NCBI GenBank assembly: GCA_021789555.1
Contig: JAJYJK010000008.1
Location: 1 to 64,000 of the forward strand
From: Nitrospirota bacterium
GTDB taxonomy: Bacteria; Nitrospirota; Thermodesulfovibrionia; Thermodesulfovibrionales; JdFR-88
Length of the DNA stretch: 64,000 bases
Direction: 5' to 3'
Shown: positions 44,777-46,840 of the stretch, piece by piece
Layout of the letters: each line of letters opens with the position of its first letter
Numbering within the stretch: position 1 is the first letter of the stretch
The notes under the pieces: generated by a model
What the model saw: only the letters and a program-made list of their open reading frames with translations
Told to the model about the DNA's origin: nothing
The model's database searches: none
Made by a program: the position numbers and the translations under genes

Positions 44777-45229
44777 ATGACGGACCCCAAGGGCAAGGCA
44801 ATCCGCGCGAACATCGAGATGGCGTTCGGGGTCTACTGCCTCCTCGGCGGCAATGTATCAAAGACCCTGGTCGAACTCGCAAAGCGTGGGTTAAAACTCT
44901 CCCGGCCGACCATGGACAAGTGGATAAAGGATTACCGCTTCGCGGAGCGCATGCAGAGCGCGGACGCCGAGCGGCAAAGAGCGAACGATAGTCAACTCTC
45001 TTTTGAGCAGGCGATGATGTCGAAGCTGGTCGCCCAGATAGAAAAATACGAAATGTACCTGGAGAGCGCGCCTGGCATCGACAACCAGGCGACGTATGCG
45101 TACACGAACCTGCTGAAAACCGTTGTGGAATTATCGCGCAAGGTGAAGGTGAAGGAAGACAAAAATCCGGAGGCGCTGAAACAGGCCGCGGATGAGATAC
45201 TGGAGAGCGAGTATGGGATTAAAAGATAA
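44777..45229 (+). CDS. Small terminase-like (Mu gp27 position, DUF1804-like)
   Basis: FGVYCLLGGNVSKTLVELAKRGLKLSRPTMDKWIKDYRFAERM; directly before the large terminase. Confidence 0.65.
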   Translation: MTDPKGKAIRANIEMAFGVYCLLGGNVSKTLVELAKRGLKLSRPTMDKWIKDYRFAERMQSADAERQRANDSQLSFEQAMMSKLVAQIEKYEMYLESAPGIDNQATYAYTNLLKTVVELSRKVKVKEDKNPEALKQAADEILESEYGIKR

Positions 45230-46673
45230 AATGGAACCCACCCTCCCGCCCTCCAATTTAGATGGGGGCTCCGCCCCCAGGCCCCCGAAAGGCACGGCAA
45301 AATCAAAAAGCATTTTACTGCCATATCAAAGAAATTGGCTGAACGATAAATCTCAAAAAAAAATCTGGCTGGCCGCCAGGCAGGTCGGCAAATCCTTCGC
45401 CCTCTCGATGGAGGCCGTCGTGGAGGGCCTGGAGGCCCGCTGTAACAATATGATCCTCTCATCGAGCCAGCGGCAGAGCACGGAGGTCATGCAAAAGGTC
45501 TATACCCATCTCCGGTACCTCAAGGTCCGTAGCGACGACGTTATACGCGCGGAGAGGGAATCCCGCGAAGAGGTCGAGTTGCCAAACGGTTCCAGGATAA
45601 TCAGCCTGCCAGCCAATCCTGACACGGTGCGCGGTTTTTCGGGCAACGTGTTCCTTGACGAGTTTGCCTTCCATCGGAACTCAAACGAGATCTGGAAATC
45701 GATGTATCCCGCGATCACGCGGGGGAAACGCATCAGGATATCGTCGACGCCCAACGGCAAGAGCAACATGTTTTATCGTCTGTGGACCGAAAGCGATTTC
45801 TCGAAGCACCAGACCAGCATTTACGAGGCGCAGGCCCAGGGCCTCGACGTGGATATAGAGGCGCTCAAGCGCGGCATCGCGGACCCCGACGCCTGGGCCC
45901 AGGAGTACGAGTGCCGCTTCGTAGACGAGGCGACGGCGTTTATCACCTATGAGATGATAACGGGCTGCGAGGATGAAAATGCGACGAAGGAATTGTCGGG
46001 TTACGCTCCGCTAACCCGACCTACGGGCGATTTTTACCTCGGCATGGACGTGGCCCGCAAGGGCGACCTCACCATCTTCTGGCTATGGGAGAAGGTGGGA
46101 GACGTCTTCTGGACCAGGATGGTCAAGGAGATGAGAAACACGCCGTTCAGCGTCCAGCGGGATTTTCTGTATGGGTTATTGGGCGGGGAAACCGTAGGGG
46201 CAGACCCGCGTGTCTGCCCAGATGGGCGCACACATGGGTGCGCCCCTACATTCCGCATCCGCCGCTGCTGCATCGATTCCACCGGCCTCGGGGCCCAGCT
46301 CGCCGAGGAGGCGATTGACAGGTTTGGTCCCACTGTAGAGGCCGTGCTGTTCACGCAAAAGGTCAAGGAGGATTTGGCAGTGACGCTGCGGCGGAAATTC
46401 GAGGACCGGCAGGTCCGCATCCCGGCCGACAGGGACATCCGCGAGGACATCCATTCGGTCAAAAGATTCACAACGTCCGCCGGCAACATCCGCTTCGATG
46501 CGGAGCGGACGGAGCTTGGCCATGCGGACCGTTTCTGGGCGGCCGCCCTGGGTGTTCACGCCGGCACGGGCGCGCCCTGGGTGGCCGAGTTCGAGGTGCC
46601 GGCGAAATCGGAGAGGGCGTTCCTGGGGATGAGGGGTTTTTTCGGGGAGCGGAGGGCGCCGGCATGGCAATAG
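45213..46673 (+). CDS. Terminase large subunit (Mu gp28-like) with two in-frame palindromic repeat insertions
   Basis: KSILLPYQRNWLNDKSQKKIWLAARQVGKSFALSMEAV (Walker A), NVFLDEFAFHRNSNEIWKSMYPAI, FYLGMDVARKGDLTIFWLWE, CCIDSTGLGAQLAEEA. Confidence 0.92.
   Translation: MGLKDKMEPTLPPSNLDGGSAPRPPKGTAKSKSILLPYQRNWLNDKSQKKIWLAARQVGKSFALSMEAVVEGLEARCNNMILSSSQRQSTEVMQKVYTHLRYLKVRSDDVIRAERESREEVELPNGSRIISLPANPDTVRGFSGNVFLDEFAFHRNSNEIWKSMYPAITRGKRIRISSTPNGKSNMFYRLWTESDFSKHQTSIYEAQAQGLDVDIEALKRGIADPDAWAQEYECRFVDEATAFITYEMITGCEDENATKELSGYAPLTRPTGDFYLGMDVARKGDLTIFWLWEKVGDVFWTRMVKEMRNTPFSVQRDFLYGLLGGETVGADPRVCPDGRTHGCAPTFRIRRCCIDSTGLGAQLAEEAIDRFGPTVEAVLFTQKVKEDLAVTLRRKFEDRQVRIPADRDIREDIHSVKRFTTSAGNIRFDAERTELGHADRFWAAALGVHAGTGAPWVAEFEVPAKSERAFLGMRGFFGERRAPAWQ
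45237..45288 (-). repeat. REP-like element, family A, inside the terminase ORF
   Basis: CCCACCCTCCCGCCCTCCAATTTAGATGGGGGC-TCC-GCCCCCAGGCCCCCGAAA. Confidence 0.7.
46194..46249. repeat. MITE-like palindromic repeat inside the terminase ORF
   Basis: Terminal GTAGGGGC...GCCCCTAC with two nested hairpins (GGGCAGAC/GTCTGCCC; GGGCGCAC/GTGCGCCC). Confidence 0.8.
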
Positions 46674-46840
46674 GCCGGCTTAGCCAAATGCCCCAGGATC
46701 GACTTAGGGCGCTGAGTGGCTATCTGGATAAGGGTCGCCCGAGGGTGAACGCGGGTAAACCGTTTACCCGGGGGTCTGGAGCGATTCTGGCGGCATGTCC
46801 GGGAGGTAATTTTAGGATGGGGGAGAGGTTTGATGCCTGA
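46664..46840 (+). CDS. Small ORF between terminase and portal (58 aa), uncertain
   Basis: Open frame overlapping both neighbours; contains the palindrome CGGGTAAACCGTTTACCCG. Confidence 0.3.
   Translation: MAIGRLSQMPQDRLRALSGYLDKGRPRVNAGKPFTRGSGAILAACPGGNFRMGERFDA

Follow-up and report, generated by a model that had tools for sequence, protein, structure and literature searches.

The gene for the large terminase subunit (TerL) of a Mu-like prophage in a Nitrospirota bacterium carries, in frame and in a predicted loop, a 56-bp palindromic element that is by its anatomy a dimer of GTAG-type REPs, i.e. a REPIN, and across the host's order this loop and a second one are filled, also in frame, by several different repeats. 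REPINs are non-autonomous hairpin elements whose movement is attributed to REP-associated tyrosine transposases (RAYTs). The best explanation, to which we give a probability of about 0.82, is the neutral in-frame insertion of such mobile REPs, which are retained only where the protein tolerates them. The window (the whole stretch analysed, 64,000 nucleotides of contig JAJYJK010000008.1) contains the following features of interest:

45192..46673, + strand: large terminase subunit (Terminase_6N + Terminase_6C) with inserts
45264..45286, + strand: third repeat, GGGGGCTCCGCCCCCAGGCCCCC, in a variable N-terminal coding stretch
45995..46024, - strand: second GTAG REP, a monomer of class GTAG-GTCGGGTTAGCGNAGCGTAACCCGAC, at hotspot 1, the linker joining the ATPase and nuclease domains, encoding SGYAPLTRPT
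46194..46249, no strand assigned: 56-bp REPIN of two head-to-head GTAG REPs, at hotspot 2 of TerL and in frame
46194..46219, + strand: REP unit 1, GTAGGGGCAGACCCGCGTGTCTGCCC
46224..46249, - strand: REP unit 2, GTAGGGGCGCACCCATGTGTGCGCCC (minus strand)
46830..48482, + strand: Mu-type portal gene adjoining TerL, whose homologues have no comparable internal insert
49829..51220, + strand: morphogenesis gene (DUF6582), whose linker varies between lineages and holds repeat-like peptides in G000 (the source genome), G003 and G011

The terminase reading frame (493 aa) contains the Terminase_6N (E 5e-24) and Terminase_6C (E 8e-14) domains and is followed by the Mu-type portal gene, a Mu F-like gene and, further on, sheath and tail genes. 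The element itself reads GTAGGGGCAGACCCGCGTGTCTGCCC - AGAT - GGGCGCACACATGGGTGCGCCCCTAC. Its outer ends are GTAGGGGC, with two hairpins inverted relative to each other: the outer arms form a 27-nt inverted repeat (78% complementarity), and each inner hairpin has 11-nt arms (91% complementarity). Both REP units start with GTAG, followed by the 11-nt arms, and lie on opposite strands with a 4-nt spacer, the head-to-head arrangement. A DNA fold of the 83 nt around the element gives two nested hairpins at -22.6 kcal/mol (mean of shuffles -17, z -2.5; 2 of 200 shuffles equally good), and an Rfam search with the element returned no match. The sequence-only reading had described a palindrome with two nested hairpins inside the terminase frame, which is confirmed at a length of exactly 56 bp; the span that it gave, 46180-46262, contains the element but takes in 14 + 13 flanking bases as well. 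It was also right that the frame stays open throughout, as the translation of 45192-46673 has the encoded peptide GGETVGADPRVCPDGRTHGCAPTF between RDFLYGLL and RIRRCCIDSTGLG. One of the three forward frames through the element is stopped by the TAG of GTAG, and the gene reads an open one.

The second insertion that had been claimed for this gene is likewise real. It is the 30-bp REP at 45995-46024 (GTCGGGTTA-CGCTCCGC-TAACCCGAC-CTAC), whose class has three more copies in the source genome (control matches, 0) and which leaves the linker, on balance, ~5 residues longer than in the shortest close relative. The repeat at 45264-45286 recurs at seven other genomic places at <=3 mismatches, again with 0 in the control. 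Among homologues of the portal and capsid genes, no comparable inserts were found. The linker of the morphogenesis gene at 49829-51220, with the peptides VIPAVGKDSGQAGMT in the window and LDSRLRGNDD in G003, is a third repeat-tolerant site, and a tandem 15-bp repeat lies just past the window (G000:C85:65656-65700; three adjacent matches to a 15-base stretch).

Copies in the source genome were counted by sequence searches. The exact 56-bp element is single there, and its stem class is likewise confined to this one place, although the class is widespread in other genomes: the matches listed cover at least 120 stretches, with more than 15 phyla named in the record titles, and there are 23 stretches in viral contigs. 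Within the phylum, the class pattern GTAGGGGCRSACCCRYGTGTSYGCCC gave 14 matches in 8 of 399 genomes against 0 for its reversed control, so the element is not a product of chance. Other REPs with a GTAGGGGC...GCCC hairpin occupy about eight places of the source genome, mostly with the stem GTAGGGGCGCTGCTTGCTGCGCCC, and a fragment of a Y1 transposase gene (PF01797; partial match to NF047646, the model of a REP-associated tyrosine transposase) lies between two of these hairpins. This RAYT-like fragment is broken by a scaffold gap and goes with a stem class other than that of the TerL element. Given a unique exact copy and a local RAYT associated with a different stem, no enzyme that would mobilise the element was identified in the host. 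In a member of the same phylum (L070), an NF047646-related gene has GTAGGGGC motifs of the TerL-element class at both ends; the NF047646-related genes that accompany this class in other genomes score below the curated cut-off of the model.

TerL relatives from the host's order were aligned and the insert site was compared in 19 members, whereas viral homologues (n = 80) were gathered by alignment search, a single-sequence TerL search of viral contigs having matched none; phage homologues from GenBank, at <60% identity, were left out of the insert-site comparison. The peptide of the element is present in none of the aligned relatives from the order. According to the sequence-only reading, a unique element with a peptide conserved in homologues would have refuted an insertion; the exact element does occur only once in its genome, but no homologue has the peptide and the REP class is widespread. 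The hotspot 2 loop, which lies between a helix ending in ...LLxG and the strand RRCCIDSTG, has 4-8 residues in all 80 viral TerLs and 4-9 in those relatives from the order that have no filler, as against 23-74 residues in 7 of the 19 TerLs of the order, where several different repeats occur, all of them in frame. G002 has two GTAG REPs there in an arrangement opposite to that of the window element, a REP at this hotspot having the stem GTAGGGGCGCTGCTTGCTGCGCCC, identical to copies in the source genome; G011 has another GTAG REPIN, different from that of the window; G003 has the LDSRLRHAGM repeat twice; and G039, G048 and G030 have further repeats. Hotspot 1 is repeat-filled in G002, G011, G039, G003, G004, G005, G009 and others. 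The judgement that two insertions in one terminase gene are unusual thus did not hold, since repeats fill these two loops in the majority of close relatives.

In a concatenated search, most of the TerL inserts have many matches within the respective genome (~20 for G039 and G003); for the inserts of G000, G002 (hotspot 2) and G009, no second match was listed in the own genome. As regards INDEPENDENCE and chance, the four closest sequences on the TerL core tree (G000, G002, G003 and G011) bear different inserts and G039 and G048 are placed elsewhere, the node joining G000 and G002 having a support of 0.18. Seven of the ~17 internal repeat-derived inserts fall in hotspot 2 and nine in hotspot 1, a concentration with a probability of about 4e-7 and about 2e-8, respectively, under a rough uniform model, for which the events were counted by hand and some may not be independent. 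Compared with the closest uninserted relatives, the gene is longer by 54 nt net for an element of 56, so the junctions are not clean, and no empty site at near identity was found.

In an AlphaFold2 model with a mean pLDDT of 86, for which 49 viral homologues were combined with the window protein, the insert (residues 295-313) is a coil that follows helix 279-290 and precedes strand 316-322 (block pLDDT 55-66), and the hotspot 1 residues 228-238 also form a coil (block pLDDT 66-74). Both inserts are predicted to lie in low-confidence coil, outside the catalytic core. Foldseek matched the model to the T4 gp17, D6E, HK97 and Sf6 large terminases. The nuclease aspartates D246, D322 and D406 are invariant and, judging by the family, probably catalytic. 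Between insert-bearing relatives, dN/dS is ~0.1 downstream of the insert, a value that cannot date selection to after the insertion.

REPs of this kind lie in other genes as well. In the unrelated viral contigs L344, L352 and L199, the linker of portal-MuF fusions contains a near-identical REPIN in frame, and the relatives L346-L351 have other filler (ISDQWPVASKKG...) at this site. The portal-MuF genes of L345 and L201 carry such a REPIN in their linker too, likewise in frame. The closely related phages L356 and L357 differ in their number of GQTRGE copies, a tandem expansion from half a REP at about residue 430 of portal-MuF. In RAYT-like genes of several bacteria, a REP of the TerL-element class directly follows the HUH motif in frame (MPNHxHGI...VGADPRV...), in four tandem copies in the case of L070:

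L070:2214-3026, L129:2469-3104, L141:6653-7279, L183:1778-2497, L188:1031-1675: RAYT-like genes with in-frame REP

These loci were chosen for containing the REP and thus document its occurrence and not its frequency; the REP transposase seems to be decorated by its own repeat. In the RAYT-like gene L168:890-1825, it is a different GTAGGGGC repeat (PVGAATPGGPHAEAPVAASTSPGSPPAP) that is present in frame, as a tandem array of about five copies, and it precedes the HUH motif.

The preferred explanation would proceed as follows: a REPIN moved into the TerL gene, presumably by the action of a RAYT, and landed in what would be a surface loop between a helix and a catalytic beta-strand of the nuclease domain. 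It would have been retained because the gene stayed in frame, this frame is stop-free and the insert sits in a surface loop, a placement that would let the enzyme go on working. Insertions that break the frame or hit the core would be purged by selection and those in loops would persist, probably reflecting tolerance and not targeting. The strong concentration of inserts, 7 + 9 of ~17 in two places, could instead reflect an insertion bias, that is, active targeting of REPs to TerL or phage DNA, with single-stranded hairpin intermediates of phage replication as one possible route, and REPs of the class lie inside ORFs in 18 of 30 cases in viral contigs versus 32 of 149 in genome contigs. However, viral contigs are short of intergenic space and this count includes duplicates, the concentration model has the limits already given, and the loops in question harbour repeat families that are unrelated and differ in their ends, which fits the tolerance of a site better than the target of one transposase, so we regard targeting as unlikely.

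In-frame retention and the stable hairpin (z -2.5) would also be expected if the peptide or the hairpin had been domesticated, for example as an mRNA hairpin pausing translation between domains or as a loop tuning the nuclease, and a role as RNA elements has been proposed for REPs (PMC3733652); yet the insert differs in sequence and length among all relatives and is missing in many, with neither a conserved peptide nor an Rfam match, which makes domestication improbable. It is likewise improbable that the prophage is decaying and that the insertion marks a defunct gene still open by chance, as several repeats within one gene and the variable linker of the nearby morphogenesis gene might suggest, because the frame is open, the nuclease aspartates are invariant, dN/dS is low, the portal, capsid, sheath and tail genes nearby are open and the inserts of relatives are in frame. 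Repeats do break assemblies and several REPs of the source genome are near contig ends, but a repeat wrongly joined into the contig is scarcely credible for an element that is mid-contig and in frame and that has counterparts in independent MAGs and viral contigs.

Under neutral insertion with retention by tolerance, non-coding mobile hairpins become protein in a likely essential viral motor, repeatedly and at the same two loops, and their repeated landing is a natural insertion-tolerance map of TerL. These loops offer a testable case of insertion bias versus survival after selection. There is also a warning for annotation, as peptides such as VGADPRVCPDGRTHGCAPT are translated REPs and not domains. 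More speculatively, and with little confidence, the two TerL loops and the one loop of the REP transposase might be recurrent landing pads that turn mobile hairpins into protein, giving a steady variation in loop length of which some is perhaps used by the phage.

GTAG REP dimers in frame within genes, including genes hit twice, have already been described (Di Nocera 2013, PMC3733652), loops and linkers have been proposed to absorb intragenic REPs, and one approximate same-site case is known, recB in Xanthomonas (PMC3733652). No description of a phage TerL case or of a two-loop recurrence was found in the literature searched, which comprised papers available without subscription. The interpretation offered by the sequence-only reading is partly supported overall: the likeness to the palindromic elements of Rickettsia (RPE) extends to the behaviour, a palindromic repeat inserted in frame in a coding gene and kept there, but the anatomy is that of a GTAG-type REP dimer. 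RPE membership was set aside for this reason, a judgement by anatomy; intragenic CGTC repeats of R. conorii have been equated with RPE-4 and RPE-6 (PMC3733652). The element shares alternating REP orientation and a presumed RAYT link with the BIME/REP elements of E. coli and Pseudomonas, which, unlike it, are mostly intergenic and of high copy number. The closest likeness is to the GTAG REP dimers of the HH type, or REPINs (PMC3733652; PMC3116915), with an unpaired GTAG end, a short GC-rich stem, a small loop and a head-to-head pair 4 bp apart that is in frame and encodes ~20 residues. Unlike those described, the TerL element resides in a prophage terminase at very low copy number in its genome, and, over an order, the same TerL loops hold repeats from several unrelated families. 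The kind of element is thus already known and the TerL case is a further member of it; the recurrence at the same loops is the interesting part.
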